From the NCBI RefSeq assembly GCF_000430045.1, contig NZ_KE387023.1, positions 134,961-198,960 of the forward strand: a DNA stretch of 64,000 nt, given 5' to 3'. The position numbers and the translations under genes were made by a program. The stretch is from Calidithermus chliarophilus DSM 9957. GTDB lineage: Bacteria; Deinococcota; Deinococci; Deinococcales; Thermaceae. Below, piece after piece: positions 4,579 through 18,009 of this stretch. The notes under the pieces are model-generated. The model worked only from the letters and a program-made list of their open reading frames with translations, was not told the origin of the DNA and ran no database searches. Numbering within the stretch: the first letter of the stretch is position 1; every line of letters begins with the position of its first letter.

Positions 4579-6030
4579 CTACTTCACCACTTCCACCACC
4601 ACCTCGGCGGCGCCGTGCTCGAGCGCCGCCTGGCGGTTGCGGTCGGGGTCGGCGGCGGGGGGAGGGGGGTTCTGGGCGGCCGGGGGGGCCGCCACGCCGA
4701 TGTTGCGGCTCATGGTGGCGGCGAGGTCGGGGAGCTGGCGGCCGGTGAAGTCGAGGGTCTTGAACTGGCCGCTGAGGCTGCCCGGCCCGGAGCGGTAGAG
4801 GTTGAGCGGGGCGGTGGTGACGATGGCGAGCACGCGGCTCGTGCCCGCCGGCTCGACGGCGCGGAAGTTGAAGCTGCCCACCTTGCGCCCCGGCACCTCG
4901 ACGAGCTCGTTCTCCTCGACGCGGTTGTCGGAGTTGAACTCGTTGGGGAAGATCACCGTGAGCTTGCCGTCGGCGCCGAGGTCGATGAGGTTGAGGTAGC
5001 CGGCCTTGGAGCTCACCAGCCGGAAGCTCACCTCCTCCCCCAGCTTGTAGGTGCGGCTGGGCTTGTTGGCCGCGATTTCCACGCGGAACTGGCTGTTGCG
5101 CAGGATGCGGTCGAGGAGTTCGGCGGGGGTGGCGGCCTGTTCGACCGCGCCGGTGTAGGGCTGGGCCGGGGTGGCGGGCTGGTCCAGCTTGCCGAAGGCG
5201 TAGATGTCCTTGGCCAGCCAGGCCGGGGGGCCGTCGAGCTGGGGGGTGTGGGGCAGGTAGCGCTGCAAGCGGCTCACCGCCAGGCGGATGGCGTCGGCGC
5301 TGCGGTCGCGCAGTTGCAGGAAGGAGAGGTTGGCCCCCTGCTGCATCACCAGGTTGTAGAGCGCCTGGGTGAAGGCGCTGCCCTGCCCCACCGCCAGCGC
5401 CCCCAGCGCCACCTCGTTCTGCGCGGCGGCGCTGAGGCTGATGACGCGGGGGCCGGCCTTGTCCTGTTCGACGCCGATGGAGCGCACGTTGGCGGGCTTG
5501 GCGCAATTGGGCTGCTGGGCGGGCTTGGGCCACAGCTTGCCCTCGATCTCCCCGAACAGGGCCGACTTGGTGGCGGTGCCGCTGAAGCAGCTATCCAGGA
5601 TCACCCAGATCTCGCTGGCCGCCACCTTCTGCAGCAGCCCGTCTATCTCGTCGTCGCTGACCACCCGCCCGTCCTGCCCCACGATGGCCTCGTCGCAGCC
5701 GTCGTCCTCGTCGCCGTTGAGGTCGCGCAGTTGGGTGCCGTGGCCGCTGAAGTAGAAGATGGCGCGGTCGCCGGCCTTGGTGCCCCTCACCAGCCACTCG
5801 TCGGCGGCCTTGAGGATGCCCTCGCGGGTGGCCTCGCGGTCCTTGAGCAGCCGGACCTGCGCGGGCTGGAAGCCGAGCTTGAGGGCCACCTGGCGCATGA
5901 GCTCGAGGTCGCGGTCGGGGCCGGGGAGGGGCTTCTCGTACTCGCGGATGCCGATGATCAGGGCCCGGTCCTCGGCCAGGGCCGCACTCGCCAACGCCAG
6001 CGCCAACACCGCCAATGCCCATCGCCTCAT
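4579..6030 (-). CDS. Secreted metacaspase-like (C14) protein with C-terminal DUF4384-type domain
   Basis: The 483-aa protein has a signal peptide (MRRWALAVLALALASAALA), an N-terminal caspase fold (about 20-265) with catalytic His in FYFSGHGTQ near 94 and Cys in ILDSCFSG near 147, and an acidic loop (DLNGDEDDGCDEAI) typical of metacaspases, where it can bind calcium. The C-terminal half (about 315-440) looks like DUF4384 (LGEEVSFRLVSSKAGYLNLI). The ATG at 6030 is chosen over an in-frame ATG at 6066 because an AGGAGG ribosome site lies just before it and the signal peptide starts there. Domain order is the reverse of its neighbours' (protease first). First gene of the four-gene string. Confidence 0.88.
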   Translation of the reverse strand: MRRWALAVLALALASAALAEDRALIIGIREYEKPLPGPDRDLELMRQVALKLGFQPAQVRLLKDREATREGILKAADEWLVRGTKAGDRAIFYFSGHGTQLRDLNGDEDDGCDEAIVGQDGRVVSDDEIDGLLQKVAASEIWVILDSCFSGTATKSALFGEIEGKLWPKPAQQPNCAKPANVRSIGVEQDKAGPRVISLSAAAQNEVALGALAVGQGSAFTQALYNLVMQQGANLSFLQLRDRSADAIRLAVSRLQRYLPHTPQLDGPPAWLAKDIYAFGKLDQPATPAQPYTGAVEQAATPAELLDRILRNSQFRVEIAANKPSRTYKLGEEVSFRLVSSKAGYLNLIDLGADGKLTVIFPNEFNSDNRVEENELVEVPGRKVGSFNFRAVEPAGTSRVLAIVTTAPLNLYRSGPGSLSGQFKTLDFTGRQLPDLAATMSRNIGVAAPPAAQNPPPPAADPDRNRQAALEHGAAEVVVEVVK

Positions 6031-6110
6031 ACGCCCAGCCTCCTGTAATGCGCTCGTGCAGCCCATTGTGGGCCGCCCACGGTTAATCCGGCGTTACACG
6101 TTCGCTGCCA

Positions 6111-8465
6111 TTATCGCACCCGGGCCACCGGGAAGTCCTCCCCCACGAAGCGCTGCTGGGGGATCTGCTGGTTCTGGGTCAGCTCGCGCACCCGGCGGCT
6201 GACGTAGGCGAAGAGCTGGCTCGAGGTCACCATCCCGCTGCTGTCGGCGGCGCCGCCCTCGAGCGCCTCCAGCAGCGCCTTGGTGAAGGCCCCGTTGCCC
6301 CAGTCGGGCTTCTCGAGCGCCGGCTGCCCGCCCCGCGAGGCCGCCATCACCAGCCGGTCGCCCGAGCCGGCCGCCAGGCTCTGCACGAAGCGGTCGGGGT
6401 CGGGGTTGTTGCTGCGCCCGCCCACCACCGCCCCCGAGTAGCAGGTGTCGATGAAGACCATCACCCGGCCGCGGGCCTTGCTCACGAAGTCCTCCACGTC
6501 CGACTGGCGCAGCGAGTCGCTCTCGAGGTCGCTCAGGCGGCTGTTGTACATGGGGATGAGGTAGACCTGCCCGTCGTTGAAGCCGTGGCCGGAGAAGAAG
6601 AGCACGGTGGTGTCGGCCTCGCCGGCGTTTCGGCGGAACTCGCCCAGCGTGCTCTTGACCTTCGACAGCAGGGCGTCCTTGCCCAGCAGCCGCACCACCT
6701 GCACCTCGTCGTAGGCGCGGCCCTTCTGCCGCTCGAAGACCCGCGCGAGGTCGGAGGCGTCCTTCTCGGCGAGGCCCAGGGGGCGGATGTTGGGGTCTTC
6801 GTACTTGTTGATCCCCACCACCATCACCCGCAGCCGCTTGAGCACGGCCTGGGGCTGGGAGGGGCGGGCGGGCTGGTAGTTGACGGTGGCGTAGAGGGTC
6901 TGGGGGACGCCGCCCCTGGGCGTGACCACGATGGTGAGCTGCACGACCCCCGGCGGGGTGTCGGGCGGCAGGCGGAAGTTGTAGGTGCGGGTCTCGGAGG
7001 CCGCCACCCCCACGTTGCGGGCCTCGATCTTGGTGAGGGTTCGCCCGGTGCTCGCGTCGACGAGCTCGATGTCGAGGGGCACCCCCGAGGGGTTGGCGAT
7101 GCGCAGCACCACCGAGAAGTCGAGGCTGTCGATCTCGCGGCTGGGCGGGGAGATGAGGGCCACGGTGGGGGCCGCGGCGACGGGGGGCGGGCCGGGCTGG
7201 GGTTGCGGTTGGGGTTGCGGTTGGGGCTGCGGCTGGGCGGCGGCCGCCTGGGTCAGGCGGGCCTCCACGGCCTGGACCCCGCCCGCCGGGACCGTCACGC
7301 TCACCTCCTCGCTCGCGTAGCCCTGTAGCCGCAGGGTGAAGCGGTAGGTGCCGGGCTCGAGGCCCTCCAGCGTCAGGGGGGTGGTGCCCAGCACCTTGCC
7401 GTCGCGCAGCACGGTAGCCCCGCTGGGGGTGCTGGTGATGCGGACCCCGCCCTTCTGCGGCTCGGGCGGGCCGGCCTGCACCGCGCCGGCCCGGAACACC
7501 GCCGTAGGGGCCACCCAGGTGAAAACCTGCGTGCCGGAGGCGGCCACCAGCCCCGTCCCCGAGGGCAGGAAGGCCAGGGCGGCCACGTCGCGCGGGTCGC
7601 CCCAGGCCGGGAGCAGCTTGCGGCTGGCGACCTCGAGCAACTGCACCCCTGCCCCCCGCACCGCCACCCCCACGTAGGCCCCGCCCGGCGCGAAGGCGAG
7701 GGCCTGCACCCCGCCGGGGGCCCGCGCCGCGCTGTTCTGGCTGAAGGCGTTGGCCGGGTGGAGGTAGACCAGCCCGTTCTCCAGGCTGTAGGCCAGCCGC
7801 TGCCCTGCCGGGTCGAAGGCCACCCCAGAAACCGGGACCCCCTCGCTCTTGGAGGCCAGGGAAGCCCCCTTGGCCGCGTCCCACAGCCGCACCGTTCCGT
7901 CCCTCGAGCCCGACAGCAGCACGCTGCTCCCCGGCTTGAAGGCCAGGCCGCGCACCTCGCCGCTGTGGCCCTGGAGCTGCGCGACGGCCTCGGCCCCGCC
8001 CTGCCGGAGCTGGAACACCTGGATGCGCCCGTTGTCGGTGCCCACCGCCAGCAGGCCGCCGCTGGCCGCCAGCGAGCGCACCCGCCCCTGGGTCCGCAGC
8101 ACCTGCTGCTCGGAGGCGCTCCTGGTCTCGAGCACGCGCACGCTCTGGTCGTCGGAGCCGGTGAAGAGCAGGCTCCCGTCGGGGCTGAAGGCCACCGCCG
8201 TCACCGAGTCGGCGTGCGCCCCGATGGTCTTCTGCAGCTTGCCCGAGACCCCCGCCCACAGCTTGCCGGTCTCGTCCACCGAGCCCGTGGCGATGAGCCC
8301 GTCGGCGCTCACCGCCAGCGCCAGTACCGGGCGCAGGTGGGCCCCCCACGACCCCGCCTTGAACACCCCCAGGTTCAGGGCAGCATTCTGCGCCCGGGAC
8401 GAGGGCAACCCCCAGGCCAACACGGCTACGGCGAATAAAAAGCCCAATACCCCTGCGCCACGCAT
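6111..8465 (-). CDS. Secreted WD40-like/PEGA/caspase-like (C14) fusion protein
   Basis: The 784-aa protein has a signal peptide, a WD40-like beta-propeller (about 45-330; repeats such as VTAVAFSPDGSLLFTGSDD and GSRDGTVRLWD), one PEGA repeat (about 342-415), a Gln-Pro run (about 420-435), a beta-sandwich spacer also found in the gene at 203-2485, and a C-terminal caspase domain with His in FFSGHGF near 625 and Cys in FIDTCYSGA near 674. The propeller probably binds the substrate or a partner. The ATG at 8465 has a GGAGGT site just upstream. It lies 80 bp upstream of the caspase/CHASE2 string and is probably part of the same system. Confidence 0.88.
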   Translation of the reverse strand: MRGAGVLGFLFAVAVLAWGLPSSRAQNAALNLGVFKAGSWGAHLRPVLALAVSADGLIATGSVDETGKLWAGVSGKLQKTIGAHADSVTAVAFSPDGSLLFTGSDDQSVRVLETRSASEQQVLRTQGRVRSLAASGGLLAVGTDNGRIQVFQLRQGGAEAVAQLQGHSGEVRGLAFKPGSSVLLSGSRDGTVRLWDAAKGASLASKSEGVPVSGVAFDPAGQRLAYSLENGLVYLHPANAFSQNSAARAPGGVQALAFAPGGAYVGVAVRGAGVQLLEVASRKLLPAWGDPRDVAALAFLPSGTGLVAASGTQVFTWVAPTAVFRAGAVQAGPPEPQKGGVRITSTPSGATVLRDGKVLGTTPLTLEGLEPGTYRFTLRLQGYASEEVSVTVPAGGVQAVEARLTQAAAAQPQPQPQPQPQPQPGPPPVAAAPTVALISPPSREIDSLDFSVVLRIANPSGVPLDIELVDASTGRTLTKIEARNVGVAASETRTYNFRLPPDTPPGVVQLTIVVTPRGGVPQTLYATVNYQPARPSQPQAVLKRLRVMVVGINKYEDPNIRPLGLAEKDASDLARVFERQKGRAYDEVQVVRLLGKDALLSKVKSTLGEFRRNAGEADTTVLFFSGHGFNDGQVYLIPMYNSRLSDLESDSLRQSDVEDFVSKARGRVMVFIDTCYSGAVVGGRSNNPDPDRFVQSLAAGSGDRLVMAASRGGQPALEKPDWGNGAFTKALLEALEGGAADSSGMVTSSQLFAYVSRRVRELTQNQQIPQQRFVGEDFPVARVR

Positions 8466-8594
8466 CCCGGACCTCCGACCCGGTCTCCGAACCCACGCCC
8501 CGCGAAATGCCGAACCCCTTAAGTGTAGTGCAATTCACCCCCTGCAGCGATTCCGGCGCCGCAGCCGGGTGCTACCCGCAATAGGCGGTCGTCC

Positions 8595-8904
8595 GTGACA
8601 AGCGGTCAGCGGTCAGCGAAAGGCTAGTGGCTCGTGGCGACCCCTCCCCAACCCTCCCCGCACGCGGGGAGGGGGTATCCCCCCCAGCCCCCCTTGTTAA
8701 GGGGGGTGAAGAAAAGGCGTTTAGCGTTTGGCGTTTGGCGTTTAGCGTTTAGCGTTTGGCGTTTGGCGTTTGGCGTTTGGCGTTTGGCGTTTGGCGTTTG
8801 GCGTTTGGCGTTCGGCGTTTTGCGTTTGGCGTTTGGCGTACGACGTAGGACGTACAACGCACGACCCGCGCCCGGCTATCGGCCACCGACCATCGACTAT
8901 CGAC
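8595..8904 (-). repeat. Composite repeat module: 7-bp tandem units flanking a C-rich hairpin (module 1)
   Basis: The module starts with units such as AGCGGTC and GGCTCGT (about 8600-8640), continues through a C-rich stretch with a perfect hairpin (CCCCCCTT at 8688-8695, GTT loop, AAGGGGGG at 8699-8706), and then has about 18 units of GGCGTTT or GGCGTTTA-like heptamers (about 8716-8840) followed by other heptamers (GTACGAC, GTAGGAC, GACCATC). It runs into the stop codon of the ligase gene at 8897. A second module in the opposite orientation is at 18,095-18,292. Unit length, not sequence, is kept at seven. Confidence 0.8.
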
Positions 8905-10405
8905 GTTCCCGGCACATCTCCCGCAGCTTCGGATAGTCCACCTTGGTGGCGAGCCTCGAGTCCAGCGGGATCCGTGCGACCGAGCGCACCTCGTGCAGGC
9001 CGGCCCACTCGAGCGCCCCCGCCAGGCCCGCCTCGTCCGGCGTGCCGCGCCACTCCACGAACAGCACCCGCCGCTCCCCGCAGCCCGCCAGCGCCGCCCG
9101 CTCCACGCCGGGGAAGAACTGGGCCGCCACCTCCACGGCGAAGGGGTAGAGGTCGCCCGCGCGGGCCGAGCAGCGCCCCAGCAGCCACAGCCGACCCTGC
9201 GCGTCGAAGTAGCCCGCGTCGCCGGTGCGGTGCCAGACGGTGCCGGTGGCCGGGTCGCGCCACTTGGTCTCGGCGTCGCCCACGCCCCCCACGTAGCCCT
9301 CCAGCACGTGGCCCCCGCTCACCACGATCTCGCCGGGCTCCCCCGGCGGCAGGGCGCCGGCCAGGAGTTCGGCCTCGCAGGCGTAGGGCAGCGGCTGGCC
9401 GAAGCGGTCGGGGAGCACCCGCAGCCGCACCTGGGGCACCGGGAGTCCGGCGACCAGGCCCCCGCCCCGGCGCATGTGCCCGAGGTCGGCCTCCCCGACC
9501 CCCGCCCAGTCCTGGTGGGCCATCGGCTCGGCTTCGGTGGAGCCGTAGACCAGCGTGGGCCGGGCCTGGGGGGCGGCTTCGCGCAGGCGCTCGAGCACCT
9601 GCGGCCACACCGGCCCCCCGCCGATGAACACCCGCCGGAAGGGCAGCCGCCGGCCCCGCGCCAGGGCCCCCCGCACCAGCTTGTCGAGGTAGGCGGGCGT
9701 GGCGGCCAGCACCTCGGCGGGGTGGGCCTCGAGCTGCCGCAGCACCCGCTCGGGCCGCAGCCTGGGGGGCTGGGTGGCGTGGGGCAGCAGCGCGGTCCCG
9801 CCCGAGGCCAGCACGGTGAGGGCCACGATGGGCAGGGTGCACAGCTCGAGCTCGCCCTTCGCCCCCAACAGGTCCTGCAGCGCCGCGTGCTGGGCCAGCA
9901 GGAAGCCGTGGGTGCGCTCGGCGGCCTTGGGCTTGCCGGTGGAGCCTGAGGTGAAGGTGACGAGCGCGGGGGCGGAGGGCTCGAGGGGGAGGAGCCCAGG
10001 GGCATCCCCCCTGGCCGGGCGGGTCGCCAGCAGCTTGAGCGGCACCCGGCGGAAGCCCGGCGAGAGCGGCCACAGCAGGAAGGCTTTGGGGACCCCGATC
10101 AGGGCCCTGGGCCGGGCCAGCCCCAGGGCGTGTTCGAAGGCGGGCCGCCCCAGGCCGGGGTCCACGAACACCACCACCGCCCCCAGCGACCACAGCGCGG
10201 CCAGGGTCAGGTAGAGCTGCCCGCTCATCGGCACCAGCACCAGCACCCGGTCGCCCTGGCCGATGCCCCTCGCCCGCAGGTGCGCCGCCAGCCCCGCCGC
10301 CCGCGCCACGAGCTCCCCGTAGCTCAGCGTGCCCCCCTCCTCGAGGATGGCGGGCTTGTCGGGGTGGGCACGGGCGCGCTCGAGCAGCAGTTCGACGAGG
10401 TTCAT
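8897..10405 (-). CDS. AMP-dependent synthetase/ligase (acyl-adenylate forming)
   Basis: The 502-aa protein is an ANL-superfamily enzyme: it would activate a carboxylate with ATP. Visible motifs are the phosphate-binding loop TFTSGSTGKPKAAERTH (about 165-180), YGSTEAEPMAH (about 290), and HRTGDAGYFDAQGRLWLLGR (about 390-410). The late part is short and the residue pattern around YGSTEAEP recalls OleC-like beta-lactone synthetases and acyl-AMP ligases, not acetyl-CoA synthetases; which of these it is cannot be settled. The ATG at 10405 overlaps the stop of the GNAT gene (ATGA), so the two are translationally coupled. The stop codon lies inside the heptamer repeat, so its last residues may have been reset by that repeat. 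Confidence 0.85.
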   Translation of the reverse strand: MNLVELLLERARAHPDKPAILEEGGTLSYGELVARAAGLAAHLRARGIGQGDRVLVLVPMSGQLYLTLAALWSLGAVVVFVDPGLGRPAFEHALGLARPRALIGVPKAFLLWPLSPGFRRVPLKLLATRPARGDAPGLLPLEPSAPALVTFTSGSTGKPKAAERTHGFLLAQHAALQDLLGAKGELELCTLPIVALTVLASGGTALLPHATQPPRLRPERVLRQLEAHPAEVLAATPAYLDKLVRGALARGRRLPFRRVFIGGGPVWPQVLERLREAAPQARPTLVYGSTEAEPMAHQDWAGVGEADLGHMRRGGGLVAGLPVPQVRLRVLPDRFGQPLPYACEAELLAGALPPGEPGEIVVSGGHVLEGYVGGVGDAETKWRDPATGTVWHRTGDAGYFDAQGRLWLLGRCSARAGDLYPFAVEVAAQFFPGVERAALAGCGERRVLFVEWRGTPDEAGLAGALEWAGLHEVRSVARIPLDSRLATKVDYPKLREMCRERR

Positions 10406-11307
10406 AGTTCGCGTGCGAACAGCGCGTAGCGCCGGATCACCCGCCCGTGGCCCTGCAGGTTGGTCGAGCGGTTGGACTCCCACATCAGCGCGTGGATCAC
10501 GCGCCGGAAGCCCGCCCCGAAGGCCTGGCGGTAGAAGCACTCGGCCAGCCAGCGCCCCAGGCCCGCGTACTCCCGCCCCGGCGCGATGGCGAGGGTCTTG
10601 GCGAGGAGGGTTCCAGGCTGGGTGGGGTCGGGCAGGCTCAGCAGGAAGCCCACCGTGCGGCCCCCGTCCTCGGCGATCCAGACCCACTCCGGCGGCACCC
10701 TGCTCACCAGCGGGCGGTAGAGGGCCTCGAAGGAGGGCCAGTCCAGCGGGCTGAACAGCGGGTTACCCACGAAAGCCGCGTTGGAGAGGGCGTGGATGCC
10801 GCGCAGATCGGCCTCGAGCGTCTGGGGCGCGGGGTGGCGCAGGCCGAGCCGGGCGAAGCGGGCCTCGAGCTCCGCCGCCCGGGGGTCGGGGACGTGGACG
10901 GTGTGCAGCGTCGAGCGGTAGGTCTGCCAGGCCGTGAAGCCCGCCTCCCGCGCCCAGCCGGCGTACTCGAGCGGGTTGCGCGGCTCGAGCAGGAAGGGCG
11001 GCTCGTCCGAGGTCTCGACCACCCAGCGGTAGCCGAACCAGGTGCTCCCGTCCAGCGGGGCCACCGCCCGCACGCAGCCCTGCTGCCTCAGGCGCTCGCA
11101 GGCCGCCCGCAGCAGGCGCACCCCGCTCTCCCGGCCTACTGCGGCGAAATGCCCGATGGCCCCCAGCCCGCCCTGGCCCCACAAGCCGGCCCGGGCCACC
11201 AACACCCCCTCCTGCACCACGCCCAGGTAAGCCGGGGCCGGAGGAAGGGGCTCGAAGGGCGGCAAACCGGGGTGCGGCGGGTAATCCAGGCCTGAAACGA
11301 TCTGCAT
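10402..11307 (-). CDS. GNAT-family acetyltransferase-like protein
   Basis: A 301-aa protein with a C-terminal GNAT fold (about 140-300): the acetyl-CoA loop region reads TLAIAPGREYAGLGRWLAE, and the end (LMWESNRSTNLQGHGRVIRR) matches the helix that carries the N-x-A/S motif. The N-terminal half also resembles a GNAT fold, so it may be a double-GNAT protein. The acceptor is unknown. It lies between a lipid-kinase-like gene (16 bp upstream) and an AMP ligase (4-bp overlap), which suggests an acyl or aminoacyl transfer step in the same pathway. Confidence 0.75.
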   Translation of the reverse strand: MQIVSGLDYPPHPGLPPFEPLPPAPAYLGVVQEGVLVARAGLWGQGGLGAIGHFAAVGRESGVRLLRAACERLRQQGCVRAVAPLDGSTWFGYRWVVETSDEPPFLLEPRNPLEYAGWAREAGFTAWQTYRSTLHTVHVPDPRAAELEARFARLGLRHPAPQTLEADLRGIHALSNAAFVGNPLFSPLDWPSFEALYRPLVSRVPPEWVWIAEDGGRTVGFLLSLPDPTQPGTLLAKTLAIAPGREYAGLGRWLAECFYRQAFGAGFRRVIHALMWESNRSTNLQGHGRVIRRYALFAREL

Positions 11308-11323
11308 GGCGCGTCTCCTGCGT

Positions 11324-12232
11324 TCAACCTTTGGCCCCGGGCTTGCGCATGGGCGCGGGCCAGCGGAAGGTCCAGCCGTACCACCAGCCCCACAGCCCCG
11401 CCAGCGCCCCCAGCCCCAGCATCCCCGGCCAGCCCAGCCACACCAGCCCCAGCAAAGCCCCCAGGATCAGCGCCACCCGCGCCGGGGCGTTGCGCTCGGA
11501 GCGGGTCATGGTCCAGGCCACCAGGCCCGCCAGCACCACCGCCAGCAAGGCCATGAGGGCCAGCTCGCCCAGCCCCGGCTGCTGCTGCAAGACGCCCAGG
11601 CTGATCACCGGGACCAGCAGGTTATCCAGCCCCTCCACCGAGACCCCCTCCATCAGCGTGCTCACGCTGGCGACGAGCAGCGCGTAGAGGCTGGCCTCGA
11701 GCACGCCCTTCTCGAAGAGCAGGTAGCCGTAGCCCAGCCCGAAGGCCACCAGGAAGAACATCAGGCTGCCCTCGAGGCTCTTGTACCGCCCCTCGGTGCC
11801 GTAGCGCACACGCCCGTACGCCACCCCCACCAGCGCCGCCAGCCCGTCGGCGAAGGTCAGCACCAGCAGCGGCAGGTAGTACTCGACCGGGTTGTGGGCG
11901 AAGGCGAAGAGCAGCGCGATGCTCAGCAGGAAGTACACCTCGCCCCACCCCTGCCGCTCCACCGAGCTCAGCACGCTCCCCAGCACCGCCCTCGCCGAGC
12001 GCAGGAAGCGCAGCGCCACCATGGTCAGGACCGCCACGCCACACACCCACAGCACGGGCTCGAGGTTGCCCCACCCGAACAACCGGGGAAAGGCCAGCGC
12101 GATCACCCCCACCCCGATGTGCATGACCTTGCGCGCCACCTCCGCGTGCGGCTGCACCCGCCGCTGCCAGAGCTTGACCCCCACCAGCAAAGCCCCCAGC
12201 GCGAGCATGACGGCGAAGGCGGTCCAGGTCAT
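11324..12232 (-). CDS. Phytol/dolichol-kinase-like integral membrane protein (VTE5/SEC59/CdsA-like)
   Basis: A 302-aa protein with about eight membrane helices. The family signature is seen in ARKVMHIGVG (near 30) and, later, in FADGLAALVGVAYGR and SLEGSLMFFLVAF, residues that in the DGK1/VTE5/CdsA group bind the CTP nucleotide. Such enzymes phosphorylate prenyl alcohols or make CDP-lipids. The ATG at 12232 is chosen because the longer in-frame start at 12337 is inside the repeat and its translation is low complexity. First gene of the three-gene string ending with the AMP ligase. Confidence 0.78.
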   Translation of the reverse strand: MTWTAFAVMLALGALLVGVKLWQRRVQPHAEVARKVMHIGVGVIALAFPRLFGWGNLEPVLWVCGVAVLTMVALRFLRSARAVLGSVLSSVERQGWGEVYFLLSIALLFAFAHNPVEYYLPLLVLTFADGLAALVGVAYGRVRYGTEGRYKSLEGSLMFFLVAFGLGYGYLLFEKGVLEASLYALLVASVSTLMEGVSVEGLDNLLVPVISLGVLQQQPGLGELALMALLAVVLAGLVAWTMTRSERNAPARVALILGALLGLVWLGWPGMLGLGALAGLWGWWYGWTFRWPAPMRKPGAKG

Positions 12233-12557
12233 GGGCGGCCTCTGGCGGCGAGGGACAGCCGAACGCCGGACGCCCGACGCCGATAGCCGAACGCCGATAG
12301 CCGAACGCCAAACGCCTTGTTGGGATAAATCATCCACTGGGGTTGTACCCAGCCCGACAGCCGACTACAGCCCCACTTCCCCGTGGAAGGGCGCCCGACC
12401 CGCGGGCCCGTCCCCGGCCGTGAATCGGTGGCTTGCTCGTGGGGGGTGGTGGGGGTGTCGGGGGTGGCAGGGGGGCGGGGGGCGAACCCCGCCCCCATAC
12501 ACCCCTGACGGCGGAGCGATCCCCGCCAAACCAAAGCACCAAGCCCCGCCCTCTCCC
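12233..12557. other. Intergenic stretch with repeat copy B
   Basis: About 325 bp without a gene between the kinase-like gene and the BtaA-like gene. The left third is degenerate 7-bp repeats and the conserved repeat copy; the right part (about 12,400-12,557) is GC-rich with no recognised signal. It separates two gene strings that otherwise read as one pathway. Confidence 0.5.
12240..12400 (-). repeat. Dispersed repeat, copy B (inverted partner at 85-200)
   Basis: Read on the minus strand it matches copy A over about 100 bases, including GTGGGGCTGTAGT, CAACCCCAG, and ATTTATCCCAACAAGGCG, and likewise ends in 7-bp units (GGCTATC, GGCGTTC). It lies just upstream of the kinase-like gene. Confidence 0.75.
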
Positions 12558-13667
12558 TCATTTCCGCTCCTCAATCACCAACCGGGAGTAGAAGAACGCC
12601 TTGTCCTGCCGGTGCAACCGCTCGGCCTCCTCGAGCCTCGGCTCCAGCAGGTGCGCCAACGACTCCGGCCGGCTGCGCGGCACGATCATGTTCCAGTACA
12701 CCAGCCGCCCGCCCGGCCTCAGGTGCGCCGCCAGCGCCCCCAGCAGAGCCTCGGTCGCCTCCTCCGACATGTACTCGAAGACGTCGGAGAGGTTGGCCCG
12801 GTCGAAGCCCTCGGGGTGCTGGGCGAGGTAGTCCTCGAGGCTCAGCCGCTCCCAGCTCAGCCGGTCGAGGTTGGCCCGGATGGTGGCGAAGTGCTCGGGC
12901 CGCAGGTACAGCGGCAAAACCGAGTCGTGGCGGCCGAGCAGGATCCAGTGGAGGTAGGGGTTGTGGGCGGGCTCGAGCTCGGTGAGGGCGTGGCGGGCGC
13001 GGGCCTTGACCTGCGCCGAGACGCTGCCCTCGGCGTGGTAGAAGAAGGCCGGGTCGCGCCCCAGGCGGCCCATCACGAAGCGCGAGAAGAAGAGCTTCAT
13101 GAGCAGCCGGTAGCGCCCTGTGTTGAAGTGCCGCTCGAAGAAGGCCACCCGCTCAGCCTCGGGCTTGGGCGTGAGCAGCTCGCGCACCCTGGCCCCTGAG
13201 AGCAGGAAGGGCAGCACGAAGCGGCGGAAGAGCGCGAAGTAGCGCTCGAACTTGCCCAGCCTGCCGATGCCCTCCTCCACCGGCTGCGCGTCCCAGAAGC
13301 GCCGGGCCTCCGGCGAGAGCAAGGGGCGGCAGCGCTGGTAGAGCCCTCGCCGCCGCGCGCTGGGCACCGAGCCGACGAGCTCGAGCAGCTCGGGGTGTTC
13401 GAGCGCCCGGAAAGCCGCCACCCGCAGCTCGAGGCAGTGAATCTGCGGCGCGCTCAGGTCGAGGGCCACCACGCTGGCGGGGTTCTGGGTGAGCATCGCC
13501 AGGGCGTTGTCGCCCGCCGAGGCGATGGAGAGGCAGCGGTCGCCGGGCCGGATCCGGAGGGCCTCGAGCAGCACGTCGGCGTCCTCCCAGACCTGGGCGT
13601 AGCGGATGCGCGAGAAGTCGGCCTTGGCCTGCACCTCGCTGCGGGGCCGCCCTAAGCGGCGGATCAC
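12558..13667 (-). CDS. BtaA/DUF3419-family S-adenosylmethionine 3-amino-3-carboxypropyl transferase-like protein
   Basis: A 369-aa protein of the DUF3419 family. BtaA moves the aminocarboxypropyl group of AdoMet to diacylglycerol in betaine-lipid synthesis. Visible motifs are IRYAQVWEDADVLLEAL (near 20-35), the AdoMet-fold stretch RPGDRCLSIASAGDNALAML (near 40-58) and VVALDLSAPQIHCLELR (near 65-80). No BtaB-like methyltransferase is in the window, so the product need not be a betaine lipid. The start is a GTG at 13667 that overlaps the previous stop (GTGA) and is preceded by GGAGGTGA. Confidence 0.85.
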   Translation of the reverse strand: MIRRLGRPRSEVQAKADFSRIRYAQVWEDADVLLEALRIRPGDRCLSIASAGDNALAMLTQNPASVVALDLSAPQIHCLELRVAAFRALEHPELLELVGSVPSARRRGLYQRCRPLLSPEARRFWDAQPVEEGIGRLGKFERYFALFRRFVLPFLLSGARVRELLTPKPEAERVAFFERHFNTGRYRLLMKLFFSRFVMGRLGRDPAFFYHAEGSVSAQVKARARHALTELEPAHNPYLHWILLGRHDSVLPLYLRPEHFATIRANLDRLSWERLSLEDYLAQHPEGFDRANLSDVFEYMSEEATEALLGALAAHLRPGGRLVYWNMIVPRSRPESLAHLLEPRLEEAERLHRQDKAFFYSRLVIEERK

Positions 13668-16141
13668 GGGCTCACCTCCGCCTTCAACAGCCGCACCGTG
13701 CCCGCGCTGCCGTCGAGCTCGACCTCGTCGCCGTCGCGCAGCCAGCGGGTGGCCCCGCCCAGGCCCACCACGCAGGGGATGCCCAGCTCCCGCGCCACGA
13801 TGGCCGAGTGCGACAGCAGGCTGCCCCGCTCGACGATCAGGCCCCGCGCCAGCGGCAGGACCAGGATCCAGCCGGGGTCGGTGCGGGGAGCGACCAGGAT
13901 GGCGGGTTCTTCGAGCCGCGCCGCGCGGGGGTCGAGGATCACCCGCACCCTGCCCCGCACGCGCCCCGGCGAGCAGGCCAGGCCCTCGCGGAGGTCGGCC
14001 GCCTGCCCCTCGGCCTCCTGGCCCACCGGCTCGGCCTCGTACACGCTCCCCAGGCTGCGGAAGCGGCCGGGCGGCTCGCCCGCGGCCCGGTGGCGCTCGA
14101 ACTCGGCCTTGCGCAGCGCGACCAGGCCCCGCAGGTCGAGGCTGACGGCGGTGCCCTCGGCGTAGCCCAGGATCTCTTCGACCGTCAGGTAGAACACGTC
14201 GCCCTCGTGCTCGAGCCGCCCCATCTCCCGCAAGCGCTGCCCCATCGCCCGGAACAGGCGGCGGGCCTCGCCGAAGACCCGGGTGCGCTCGAAGCGCAGG
14301 TTCTCCCGGCCCCGCACCCGCGCCCGCGCCTCGCGCAGCACGTAGGCGAAGATCCGGCGCCGCCACCCCGAGAGCTGCCCCAGCGCCCGCGCCTCGGCGG
14401 CCCGGCGGCGGGCCTCGGCCTCGCGGAGGGGGGGCTCGGGGGTGCGGGCCAGCTGCGCGACCGTCCGGGCCAGCAGTTCGGGCTGGTCGGTGAGGGTGGG
14501 GCTTTCGAGCTTGAGCTCGTCCAGGCAGCGGTCGCCGAAGCGCTCGAGGTAGGCCCGGAACTCGCGCCCCAGCTCGGGGTGCTCGTGCAGCGCGGAGGCG
14601 GGGTCGGCCTCGAGGCGGCCGATCAGCCCCGGGTTCCCCCGCACCAGCGCGGCCATGGCCTGCAAGCGCTGGGCGGGCTCCGCGCTGACCATGCCCCCCT
14701 CCCCCGCCACCAGGTCGTTGTGCAACGCGCCCTCCTCGCCCAGCCAGCGCTGGCCCAGGCGGCGCAGCAGGCCGTAGAAGACCATGCAGAAGAAGTCGTT
14801 GATCAGGGGCGCGTCCCAGCGGTTGAGCAGGCTGGCCTCGAGCCGCCGGTAGCGCCGGGCCAGGCCCACGAAGTCCAGGCGCGAGAGGTCGGCCTTGTCG
14901 AGCGCGGCCTCCAGGCGGGCGTAGAAGGCCCGCTCGTAGCGGGGGAGCAGGAGGTAGCTGGTGAGGAGCCCCAGCACGGTCCGGGCCAGGTAGAGCGCGT
15001 CCTGGGCCCTCGAGCGGCTCACCTCCACCCGCAGGCCCTCGGGCATCCCCTCGGCCACGCCCATCATCTGCTCCATGAAGCCCCGGTTGACCGAGAAGCC
15101 CGGCAGCAGGGCCAGCGCCTTGTACCAGTGGCTGAGGTTGTAGTACACCCGCCCCTTCACCAGCCCGATCATGCCGTCGAAGACGTGGCCGTTGGCCTCG
15201 ATGAGGCCCTGCGGCACCCCGAACAGGCGCACCAGGCGGCGGTAGACCTGCCGGTAGGCCCGGCTGGCGAAGGAGAAGGTGAGGGGGGTGGTCACGCCGC
15301 TGTAGCTCTCGATGATGTTGGAGTTGTCCCACCAAGTGGGCTCGCCCGCCTCTGGTTGCGCCGCGGGCAGCGTGGTGATGGGGCGCGACTGGAGCAGGTA
15401 GAGCCTGCCGCCCTGCATCGCCCACTCGATGTCCTGGGGGCTGCCGAAGTGGGCCTCGCAGCGCAACGCCAGCGCGGCGACCTCGAGCGCCCCCTCCCGG
15501 CTGAGCAAAGCCCCCTCGGGCATCTCTACCGCCCCGTCCTGCACGCGGTAGGTCTGGCCCTCCGCCTCGCCCGAGACCAGCTTGTCGCCCAGCCCCGCCA
15601 CCGCCGCGATCACGCAGGCCCTCGAGCCGTCCAGCGGGTCGCGGCTGAAGCAGACCCCGGCCACCTCCGCCGGCACCATGGCCTGCACCAGCACCGCCGG
15701 GGGCTTACCGCCCGGCGGCAGGCCCCGCGCCTCGCGGTAGGCCCGGCTGCGCTCGCCGAAGCCCGAAGCCCACACCTTCACCACGAACTCGGGCACCTGC
15801 TCGCGGGGCACGCTCAGGAAGGACTCGAACTGCCCGGCGAAGGAGTGCCCCGGTGCGTCCTCGTCGGCGGCGGAGGAGCGCACCGCGTAGGACCCGGCCT
15901 CGGGGAGGGCCCCCAGCAGCGCCTTCGCCAGGCCGGGCTCGAGCCGCAGGCCCTCGAACAGCGCTTCGAACCGCCCGGCCTCGAGGAGCTCGAGCTGCCG
16001 CGGGCCCAGGCTGCGGGCGAAGGCCTCGGGCGTCACGACCACGAAGGGCGGGACGGGGAAGCCCTCGAGCCGGCTCAGGGCCCAGGCCTTGCCGCCTAAG
16101 CTCGAGCGTTCTGCGGGGGAATCCGGGGGAATGAGCTTCAT
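13664..16141 (-). CDS. PEP-synthase/PPDK-like phosphotransferase lacking the PEP-binding barrel
   Basis: The 825-aa protein has an N-terminal PPDK ATP-grasp domain (about 10-310; AVRSSAADEDAPGHSFAGQ), a helical middle (about 310-730) and a C-terminal swivelling His domain with the catalytic His in GSLLSHSAIVARELGIPCVVG (near 780). The C-terminal PEP/pyruvate TIM barrel of true PEP synthase is absent. This order and length match rifampin phosphotransferase, in which the middle domain binds the acceptor. The acceptor here is probably a lipid or alcohol of the same pathway, which is an inference. The ATG overlaps the UbiA stop (ATGA) and its own stop overlaps the BtaA-like start. Confidence 0.82.
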   Translation of the reverse strand: MKLIPPDSPAERSSLGGKAWALSRLEGFPVPPFVVVTPEAFARSLGPRQLELLEAGRFEALFEGLRLEPGLAKALLGALPEAGSYAVRSSAADEDAPGHSFAGQFESFLSVPREQVPEFVVKVWASGFGERSRAYREARGLPPGGKPPAVLVQAMVPAEVAGVCFSRDPLDGSRACVIAAVAGLGDKLVSGEAEGQTYRVQDGAVEMPEGALLSREGALEVAALALRCEAHFGSPQDIEWAMQGGRLYLLQSRPITTLPAAQPEAGEPTWWDNSNIIESYSGVTTPLTFSFASRAYRQVYRRLVRLFGVPQGLIEANGHVFDGMIGLVKGRVYYNLSHWYKALALLPGFSVNRGFMEQMMGVAEGMPEGLRVEVSRSRAQDALYLARTVLGLLTSYLLLPRYERAFYARLEAALDKADLSRLDFVGLARRYRRLEASLLNRWDAPLINDFFCMVFYGLLRRLGQRWLGEEGALHNDLVAGEGGMVSAEPAQRLQAMAALVRGNPGLIGRLEADPASALHEHPELGREFRAYLERFGDRCLDELKLESPTLTDQPELLARTVAQLARTPEPPLREAEARRRAAEARALGQLSGWRRRIFAYVLREARARVRGRENLRFERTRVFGEARRLFRAMGQRLREMGRLEHEGDVFYLTVEEILGYAEGTAVSLDLRGLVALRKAEFERHRAAGEPPGRFRSLGSVYEAEPVGQEAEGQAADLREGLACSPGRVRGRVRVILDPRAARLEEPAILVAPRTDPGWILVLPLARGLIVERGSLLSHSAIVARELGIPCVVGLGGATRWLRDGDEVELDGSAGTVRLLKAEVSP

Positions 16142-16965
16142 AAGCGGAGTGCCAGCGCGAGATACAGCACGACCACCCACAGCGCGGAGATAGCACTGAT
16201 TGTAGACAGCCCGCGCTCAGGACGCTGGTATATCTGCAAAATCGCTAGCAAAAGACCGGCCAGCGCGAAAAAGGGCCAAGCTCGCCCGCTGGCCCAGGCC
16301 GCCGCCATCGCCCCCGCCGTCGCCACCCCGGCCCACACCGCCAGTGCCCGCCGCCAGCCCCACAGGGCGCTGTAGGTCTGGACCCCGGCCTCTTCCTCCT
16401 GAGGCAGCCGGATCTTGCGGCCCAGCTCCATCAGCGCCCCGGCGCAGAGGCTCAGTGCCACCAGCCCCGGCACCCCTTCGGCCCGCAGGCCGCCCCACAG
16501 CCCCACGAAGACCTGCATCAGCGGCACGACGAGCAGGTGGCTCAGCAGGTAGGCCACCGGGCGGGCCACCAGCCAGCGGTGGGCGAAGAACTCCTTGCCC
16601 ATCAGCGCCATGTAGGCCCACACCAGCGCCAGCATGGGCAGCGCCGACGGCATGAGCCAGGCGCACAGCAGGGCTTGCAACGCCGCGGCCCCCAGGCCCA
16701 GCCAGGCCAGCTCGCCCAGGCGGATCAGGCCCCGCGCCACCGGGCGGTAGGGGCGGTGGGCCAGGTCGTCGCGGTAGTCCTTGAACTCGTCGAGGACGCG
16801 CAGTTGCAGGTAGAGCAGCAGGCTGACGAGGCTCACGGCGAGGTAGGGCAGCCAGCCGGGGAAATCGCCCGCGTAGCGCAGCACGCAAAAGCTGGTGACG
16901 AGCACCAGCGGCGCGTACTGGGCCAGGGGGAAGCGCTCGCGTTGGTAAGTGAGCCAGCGCTGCAT
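16138..16965 (-). CDS. UbiA-family prenyltransferase
   Basis: A 275-aa integral membrane protein with about eight helices. The first aspartate-rich motif reads RVLDEFKDYRDD (near 57-68), which binds the prenyl diphosphate with Mg2+; the second is the weaker stretch GRKIRLPQEEEAGVQTYS (near 195). UbiA enzymes attach a prenyl chain to an aromatic or glycerol acceptor. It is the first gene of a three-gene string with 4-bp overlaps. No ribosome site precedes the ATG; a CATAAT box ends 8 bp upstream, so the mRNA may be leaderless. Confidence 0.87.
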   Translation of the reverse strand: MQRWLTYQRERFPLAQYAPLVLVTSFCVLRYAGDFPGWLPYLAVSLVSLLLYLQLRVLDEFKDYRDDLAHRPYRPVARGLIRLGELAWLGLGAAALQALLCAWLMPSALPMLALVWAYMALMGKEFFAHRWLVARPVAYLLSHLLVVPLMQVFVGLWGGLRAEGVPGLVALSLCAGALMELGRKIRLPQEEEAGVQTYSALWGWRRALAVWAGVATAGAMAAAWASGRAWPFFALAGLLLAILQIYQRPERGLSTISAISALWVVVLYLALALRL

Positions 16966-17034: not shown

Positions 17035-18009
17035 TCAGCCGCCGATGCCCACCATCACCCGCTCGCGCAGCGTCGGCAGGGTGTTGCCGAAGGCGGGCTT
17101 GCGGTCGGTGGCGATGAGGATGGCGTCCACGAGGGCCTCGAGCGGGTTGGGCGCTTCGAAGGCCCAAGCGATGTCCATCTCGAGGTCGGTGAGCAGGCAG
17201 GGCCGCAGCTTCTTGTCGGAGGTCAGGCGCAGGCGCGAGCAGTTGGAGCAGAAGGGCTCCATCACCGGGTTGATGAAGCCGACCGTGCCCACCGCGCCGG
17301 GGATCCGGTAGAGCCGCGCCGGGGCGCTGGGGTCGTCCTCGAGCTTCTCCAGCGGGCCGAAGTGCCGCTCGATGACGGTCTTGGTCTCGCTCCCGGCGAT
17401 GAAGCGCTGCCGGTAGAGTTCGGGGTTGGAGTTATCGAGGTGCATGTACTCGAGGAAGCGCACGTGCAGCGGCTTGTCCAGCGAAAGCAAGGCCAGGGGG
17501 ATCACCTCGCCCTCGTTCATGCCCCTGATCATCACCGCGTTGAGCTTGACGGGCCCCAAGCCCAGCTCAAAGGCGGTCTCGATGGCCTCCCAGACGCGCC
17601 GGACGTCGCCCCCGCGGGTCATGGTGCGGAAGACCTCGGGGGTCACCGAGTCCATGGAGAGGTTCATGCGCTTGAGGCCAGCGTCCTTGAGCTCCTTGGC
17701 CTTGCGCTTGAAGAGCATGCCGTTGGTGGTGATGGCGATGTCCTCGATGCCCAGCTCGCGGGCCGCCGCGATCATCTCGGGCAGCTCCTTGCGCACCAGC
17801 GGCTCCCCGCCGGTAAAGCGCACCGACTCGAGGCCCAGCAGCCGCATGGCCCCCAGGAAGTTGCGCACGTCCTCGACGCTAATGGTGCCGGGCGGCTCGG
17901 TCATCTCCCAATCCAGCGGGTGACAGTACAGGCAGTGCAGGTTGCAACGCGGCGTCACCGACAGGCGCAAATCCTTGATGAGGCGGCCATAGTTATCGAA
18001 TAGTTTCAT
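17035..18009 (-). CDS. moaA: GTP 3',8-cyclase MoaA (molybdenum cofactor biosynthesis)
   Basis: A 324-aa radical-SAM enzyme that turns GTP into 3',8-cyclo-GTP, the first step of molybdopterin synthesis. The N-terminal cluster motif is CNLHCLYC (near 23-30), the GGEP motif is VRFTGGEPL (near 66), and the second cluster is CSNC plus a Cys 14 residues on in SRLRLTSDKKLRPCL (near 265-285). The protein ends in GIGG; the C-terminal Gly-Gly is needed for activity in MoaA. Length is as usual for the family. No other Moco gene lies in the window. Confidence 0.95.
   Translation of the reverse strand: MKLFDNYGRLIKDLRLSVTPRCNLHCLYCHPLDWEMTEPPGTISVEDVRNFLGAMRLLGLESVRFTGGEPLVRKELPEMIAAARELGIEDIAITTNGMLFKRKAKELKDAGLKRMNLSMDSVTPEVFRTMTRGGDVRRVWEAIETAFELGLGPVKLNAVMIRGMNEGEVIPLALLSLDKPLHVRFLEYMHLDNSNPELYRQRFIAGSETKTVIERHFGPLEKLEDDPSAPARLYRIPGAVGTVGFINPVMEPFCSNCSRLRLTSDKKLRPCLLTDLEMDIAWAFEAPNPLEALVDAILIATDRKPAFGNTLPTLRERVMVGIGG

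Follow-up and report, generated by a model that had tools for sequence, protein, structure and literature searches.

Among described systems, those closest to the locus analyzed here are drawn from both lipid and natural-product metabolism: the BtaA–BtaB route to the betaine lipid DGTS; the archaeal ether-lipid enzyme DGGGP synthase of the UbiA superfamily; bacterial sphingolipid synthesis, whose genes for ceramide synthase, Spt, and CerR are frequently found in one cluster (PMC11334938); the OleABCD and mevalonate pathways; and the phosphotransferases and ligases exemplified by PEP synthase, rifampin phosphotransferase, and PigC–RedH. The locus lies in a stretch of 64,000 nucleotides of the Calidithermus chliarophilus genome, hereafter the window, where six adjacent genes had been predicted, from the letters alone, to make a lipid by a mix of enzymes that matches no known pathway. 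Computation establishes a conserved and co-inherited unit, the families of its enzymes, and a frequent HMG-CoA reductase partner in genomes without the mevalonate pathway. Our preferred reading, to which we assign a probability of about 40%, is that of a horizontally mobile operon that builds an amino-acid-containing, N-acylated lipid of the homoserine-ether type.

A conserved six-gene unit

Positions 8897–16965 are filled by six genes, all on the minus strand, in agreement with the single direction originally predicted, and lettered A to F here in order of transcription. Gene A (16138..16965; 275 aa) encodes a divergent UbiA-type intramembrane prenyltransferase; gene B (13664..16141; 825 aa) a protein like PEP synthase and rifampin phosphotransferase, with ATP-binding and swivelling His domains; gene C (12558..13667; 369 aa, GTG start) a BtaA-like SAM 3-amino-3-carboxypropyl transferase of the DUF3419 family; gene D (11324..12232; 302 aa) a polytopic protein like phytol and dolichol kinases; gene E (10402..11307; 301 aa) a tandem-GNAT acyltransferase; and gene F (8897..10405; 502 aa) an AMP-forming ligase of the PRK09274/OleC clade. 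The 4-bp couplings claimed for the first three genes can be read from the sequence, as an ATGA between A and B (A stop at 16138, B ATG at 16141) and a GTGA between B and C (B stop at 13664, C GTG at 13667). E and F share another 4-bp ATGA (E stop at 10402, F ATG at 10405), and D and E are spaced by 16 bp. Between C and D lies a 325-bp gap (12233..12557, minus strand) containing 7- and 14-bp tandem repeats. The earlier picture of two coupled strings is thus true of this genome, but the break is a local one, as C and D overlap by 4 bp in many relatives. A regulatory role for the gap is unsupported: a simple scan, with other promoter types outside its reach, found no promoter-like site in it, and short tandem repeats are common in the genome.

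Just past gene F, at 8716–8839, is a 7-bp tandem array of GGCGTTT with 17.7 copies. Matches to three such units, allowing at most two mismatches and counting overlapping registers, number 142 forward and 345 reverse across the genome against 0 for a reversed-pattern control, so heptamer arrays of this sort occur throughout the genome. Next after the cluster, and also on the minus strand, come two genes for caspase-like (Peptidase_C14) proteins; the product of the first (6111–8465) has WD40 repeats and a PEGA domain, and that of the second (4579–6066) has DUF4384. Upstream of gene A, moaA (17035–18009; NCBIfam moaA, 1.4e-94) is not conserved with the cluster.

Scanning 84,980 species genomes with gene C gave 78 loci, a lower bound because the scan used short peptide patterns. 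A Roseinatronobacter plasmid, four loci of the window's phylum, and five Verrucomicrobial loci found via gene E bring the collection to 88, the gene content of which was determined by tblastn with all six proteins. Of the 88, 70 have the full set of six on a single strand, and 69 of these 70 share one circular order, read either as ABCDEF or as CDEFAB, the same circle opened at another point. With H denoting HMG-CoA reductase, the orders are HABCDEF (33 loci), CDEFAB (27), ABCDEF (9), and EFHABCD (1). Most incomplete loci stop at a contig edge. Two look like real variants: locus L079, in which the cluster is split over two strands, and L135, from a metagenome-assembled genome (MAG), which holds E-F-A-B only, without C and D, and suggests that gene C may not be obligatory for the unit. 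Drawing the sample with E rather than C recovered all six genes in four of five fetched loci, and in Roseinatronobacter the six are contiguous with every junction overlapping. The cluster is present in at least ten bacterial phyla, among them Verrucomicrobiota, Pseudomonadota, Cyanobacteria, Planctomycetota, Acidobacteriota, Elusimicrobiota, Campylobacterota, and Bacillota; by record title, the carriers are Verrucomicrobia, Alpha- and Gammaproteobacteria, Cyanobacteria, Phycisphaeraceae, Acidobacteria, Elusimicrobia, Sulfurimonadaceae, Clostridia, Rubrivirga, and Myxococcota. The original prediction had proposed asking whether the genes stay together across phyla and had named their scattering in relatives as evidence against it. 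Scattering was looked for and is not what was found. That the six genes form one functional and biosynthetic unit is strongly supported.

Over the 70 complete loci, the six genes resemble one another in their pairwise distances, with correlations (r) between 0.74 and 0.96. In a tree of B, C, and F combined, the window genome and a second genome of its phylum (G001) group with Rubrivirga near Phycisphaeraceae, and the other three carriers of the phylum (G083, G096, and G097) fall elsewhere, beside a cyanobacterium (with a weak local support of 0.41) and Gammaproteobacteria. Because host phyla are intermixed in this tree, we conclude that the module moves horizontally; the correlated distances and the tree placement together indicate a unit inherited as a block that passes between phyla. 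The synteny rules out chance neighbourhood, and a lipid serving as a lineage marker for the window's phylum is ruled out by the rarity there of gene C, of which a homologue of any kind occurs in 7 of 111 genomes, and of the cluster, which occurs in the five just named. That a pathway of six to seven enzymes has stayed intact in many phyla implies a molecule worth making for many unrelated bacteria, and carriers that have names and are not metagenome bins, such as Rhodovulum robiginosum and Roseinatronobacter sp. S2, in which the cluster lies on plasmid NZ_CP121116.1, make its product testable.

Proposed chemistry and the membrane enzymes

A lipid product would fit the enzyme families of the cluster as well as the sphingolipid-type neighbours of gene E's distant relatives. 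In the pathway that we infer, together with the order of its steps, its acceptor, and its product, A, whose closest solved relative is DGGGP synthase, would transfer a prenyl group to an acceptor. B would phosphorylate or otherwise activate an acceptor with ATP, and C would attach the 3-amino-3-carboxypropyl group of SAM to a hydroxyl. F would convert an acyl, possibly hydroxyacyl, group to an acyl-AMP or thioester, from which E would acylate the newly introduced amino group as an amide, and D would phosphorylate a lipid alcohol or a related intermediate. In loci with HMG-CoA reductase, that enzyme would furnish a building block, namely mevalonate or something similar obtained by reducing a thioester, and would not serve isoprenoid synthesis. 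Gene fusions tie some of these steps together: a MAG of the Sulfurimonadaceae (L039) has D joined to E, and L073 has B joined to both an AMP ligase and an acyl carrier protein. An aminocarboxypropyl head with an acyl cap is indirectly supported by the DUF3419 protein C, by the tandem GNAT E, which is related to GNATs encoded in lipid gene clusters, and by a second pairing of DUF3419 with an E-like GNAT. A bolder formulation, of an undescribed lipid class, horizontally spread over at least ten phyla, that combines a SAM-derived aminocarboxypropyl group, an acyl amide, a prenyl or other group transferred by the UbiA-type enzyme, and often a non-isoprenoid mevalonate unit from HMG-CoA reductase, is one that we offer only tentatively and would not bet on.

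Gene A itself has no significant Pfam match, but it matches UbiA-type NCBIfam models (8.7e-19), and its orthologue in L023 matches PF01040 at 5e-12. Its AlphaFold model (pLDDT 94) matches UbiA structures at a TM of about 0.55–0.7 (0.69 for Aeropyrum UbiA), such that models and predicted fold agree on the UbiA call made originally. DGGGP synthase is nearest both by profile (1.1e-7) and by fold (2.1e-6). The first Asp-rich motif is retained (R56..D59-E60..K62-D63...D67) and the second is changed (E180..R183-K184...E191..G194-V195..Y198): R183-K184 is invariant in the aligned members versus Lys-Asp in DGGGP synthase. Prenyl transfer by A may thus be altered, a Lys replacing the Asp of the second metal motif. 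The polytopic protein D conserves the motifs R.S.G, D...A..G, KS.EG, and E.....G.DN...P, which we take to be those of phytol and dolichol kinases. These motifs favor the earlier kinase-like call, but no significant Pfam, NCBIfam, or PDB match accompanies them. Gene D is also shorter here than in most relatives (302 versus about 440 aa), its C-terminal membrane part missing.

Rival readings of the cluster

The main rival reading is a small diffusible natural product, for instance a prenylated amide or lactone, in the making of which B would resemble the PigC/RedH prodigiosin ligases and F would resemble OleC. Both earlier family calls are borne out, B as a PEP-synthase-like phosphotransferase (PPDK_N, 2.3e-48; PEP-utilizers, 1.2e-25) and F as an AMP ligase (AMP-binding, 9.6e-55). 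The invariant His778 of B lies in the swivelling domain. RedH (6.7e-87) and PigC (6.9e-74) are good matches to B, yet a generic PEP-synthase-like model (4.8e-207) is a better one, and B stays below every NCBIfam cut-off. Structures of the 5FBS type (presumably rifampin phosphotransferase, recorded as PEP synthase) align with its N- and C-terminal domains only; the middle, about 230 residues at about profile positions 258–487, does not align to 5FBS and should be the substrate-binding part, distinct from that of the named enzymes. Gene F falls in the PRK09274/OleC clade in 32 of 32 members, conserves the TSGSTGKPK loop and the C-terminal Lys488, and counts OleC among its nearest named relatives, though with 168.8 of 900 bits, far under the curated OleC cut-off. 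The patchy, horizontally spread distribution is typical of specialized metabolites, and some Clostridial loci have an extra AMP ligase with an acyl carrier protein, as also befits a diffusible product. In L073 (Clostridia; 6879–11132), the domains of which were checked, both are fused to B; the extended B of L050 (12464–16729) is of the same fusion type judging from its length, and L049, L051, L056, and L064 have a separate AMP-ligase-like gene after B, as judged by eye from the sequence. Against this reading, a comparison of flanks across loci found no exporter, regulator, or tailoring gene conserved beside the cluster, the families of C, D, and E are typical of lipid metabolism, and the cluster is retained in a small Clostridial genome of about 1.5 Mb. 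We regard a diffusible product as unlikely, albeit a rival to be taken seriously.

The next alternative turns on the donor used by gene E. Its assignment as a GNAT, made in the original prediction, is confirmed by a match to Acetyltransf_1 (2.6e-7) and by a predicted model (pLDDT 95) with a tandem GNAT fold, which is like that of acetyl-CoA-dependent as well as aminoacyl-tRNA-dependent GNATs (MshD, MprF, FemX). E could conceivably draw on aminoacyl-tRNA in the manner of MprF or FemX to yield an aminoacylated lipid or cell-wall precursor, leaving F to activate something else. Foldseek does retrieve MprF, FemX, and Sba18/Sbb17, but CoA-dependent tandem GNATs match better. In many loci, moreover, E and F share a 4-bp overlap, and the correlation between their distances is 0.96, suggesting that F supplies the donor of E. 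The distant homologues of E likewise speak against tRNA dependence: in Verrucomicrobia, they adjoin serine-palmitoyltransferase-type and CDP-alcohol phosphotransferase genes, or a fusion of a PKS with a serine-palmitoyltransferase-like protein. Since the genes for ceramide synthase, Spt, and CerR often cluster (PMC11334938), these relatives are plausibly lipid N-acyltransferases. An aminoacyl-tRNA-dependent E is, on balance, improbable. One such fusion, of a ketosynthase/PKS protein to a serine-palmitoyltransferase-like domain, is found at L129:2645-7746 with an E-like GNAT directly after it.

Gene C matches DUF3419 at 1.6e-70, in keeping with the BtaA-like call, and agrees on the SAM side with a BtaA-like rhizobial DUF3419 protein at Y23, Q25, W27-E28-D29, G52, N54, and D70. 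Only 11 of its 37 cluster-invariant columns are common to the rhizobial protein, for which reason its acceptor is probably different. Membership of the BtaA family would also suit a variant of DGTS-type betaine lipid synthesis, with C making diacylglyceryl-homoserine and the other genes supplying or decorating diacylglycerol; we disfavor this as very improbable, since the cluster has beside it no conserved methyltransferase gene, such as the one that overlaps the rhizobial DUF3419 gene in an arrangement expected of btaA–btaB, the acceptor-side residues of C differ, and the UbiA, phosphotransferase, GNAT, and ligase would be superfluous for DGTS. A separate locus in G083 (L113:6187-11019) comprises a YegS-type lipid kinase fragment, a PEMT–DUF3419 fusion, an E-like tandem GNAT, and a PLP decarboxylase, and is possibly another undescribed aminolipid operon. 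The PEMT–DUF3419 fusion there is coupled directly to the GNAT, a single case; with the cluster itself, aminocarboxypropyl transfer and an E-like GNAT are thus paired in two settings.

The seventh gene, HMG-CoA reductase, went unmentioned in the original prediction and is absent from the window genome. It occurs in 36 fetched loci and in three further genomes of the window's phylum, directly upstream of A in nearly all loci that have it, and is the usual neighbour in most Gram-negative relatives. PF00368 (5e-110) and TIGR00533 (1e-93) both recognize the protein, which keeps its catalytic segments across 37 sequences and is the sole HMG-CoA reductase of most of these genomes. It is also missing from G001 and the Clostridial loci; as the window genome and G001 both sit inside a clade that bears it, it was probably lost in these two. 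The position of the gene and its conserved catalytic segments might seem to favor mevalonate-fed isoprenoid synthesis, with A, B, and D processing prenyl phosphates, but that reading, to which we give as little credence as to the betaine lipid, is rejected because none of 18 genomes tested has HMG-CoA synthase or a mevalonate-diphosphate decarboxylase above cut-off, 17 of the 18 have DXR (positive controls were detected throughout), and some carriers lack the reductase altogether. The reductase is therefore not there for mevalonate-pathway isoprenoids. Orphan HMG-CoA reductases with DXR and without HMG-CoA synthase are seen in G083, G096, G097, G111–G118, G121, and G123, and pose the question of why genomes with the DXP route yet retain the enzyme in an operon.

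Comparison with described systems

Set beside betaine-lipid synthesis, the cluster shares the DUF3419/BtaA family and its conserved SAM-side motif, but no BtaB-type N-methyltransferase is among its conserved neighbours, the acceptor-side residues of C differ, and it has five extra genes. With DGGGP synthase, the nearest solved structure, gene A shares the UbiA fold and the first Asp-rich motif; it differs in having a Lys for the second-motif Asp and in a setting without archaeal lipid genes among the conserved neighbours. The likeness to bacterial sphingolipid synthesis runs through gene E, distantly homologous to Verrucomicrobial tandem GNATs, putative ceramide synthases, that are encoded beside serine-palmitoyltransferase-type genes, whereas the cluster is without a reductase of that pathway and serine palmitoyltransferase is not among its conserved neighbours. 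Gene F likewise shares a ligase clade with the beta-lactone synthetase OleC, yet lies far below OleC cut-offs, and OleA, OleB, and OleD are not among the conserved neighbours. Rifampin phosphotransferase, PEP synthase, and PigC–RedH align with gene B in the N-terminal ATP-binding and C-terminal His domains, and differ in the unaligned middle and in gene context. As for the mevalonate pathway, the extended operon of the relatives includes its HMG-CoA reductase, but the carriers tested lack HMG-CoA synthase and the decarboxylase and nearly all have DXR of the DXP route instead. By these comparisons, the cluster belongs to none of the betaine-lipid, mevalonate, sphingolipid, and Ole pathways, and the open-access literature yielded no description of such a cluster (an account in a subscription journal or preprint is possible), in keeping with the original view of a mix that matches no known pathway. 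Within the open-access literature, it is the pathway as a whole that is new, and it is assembled from enzymes of known families.
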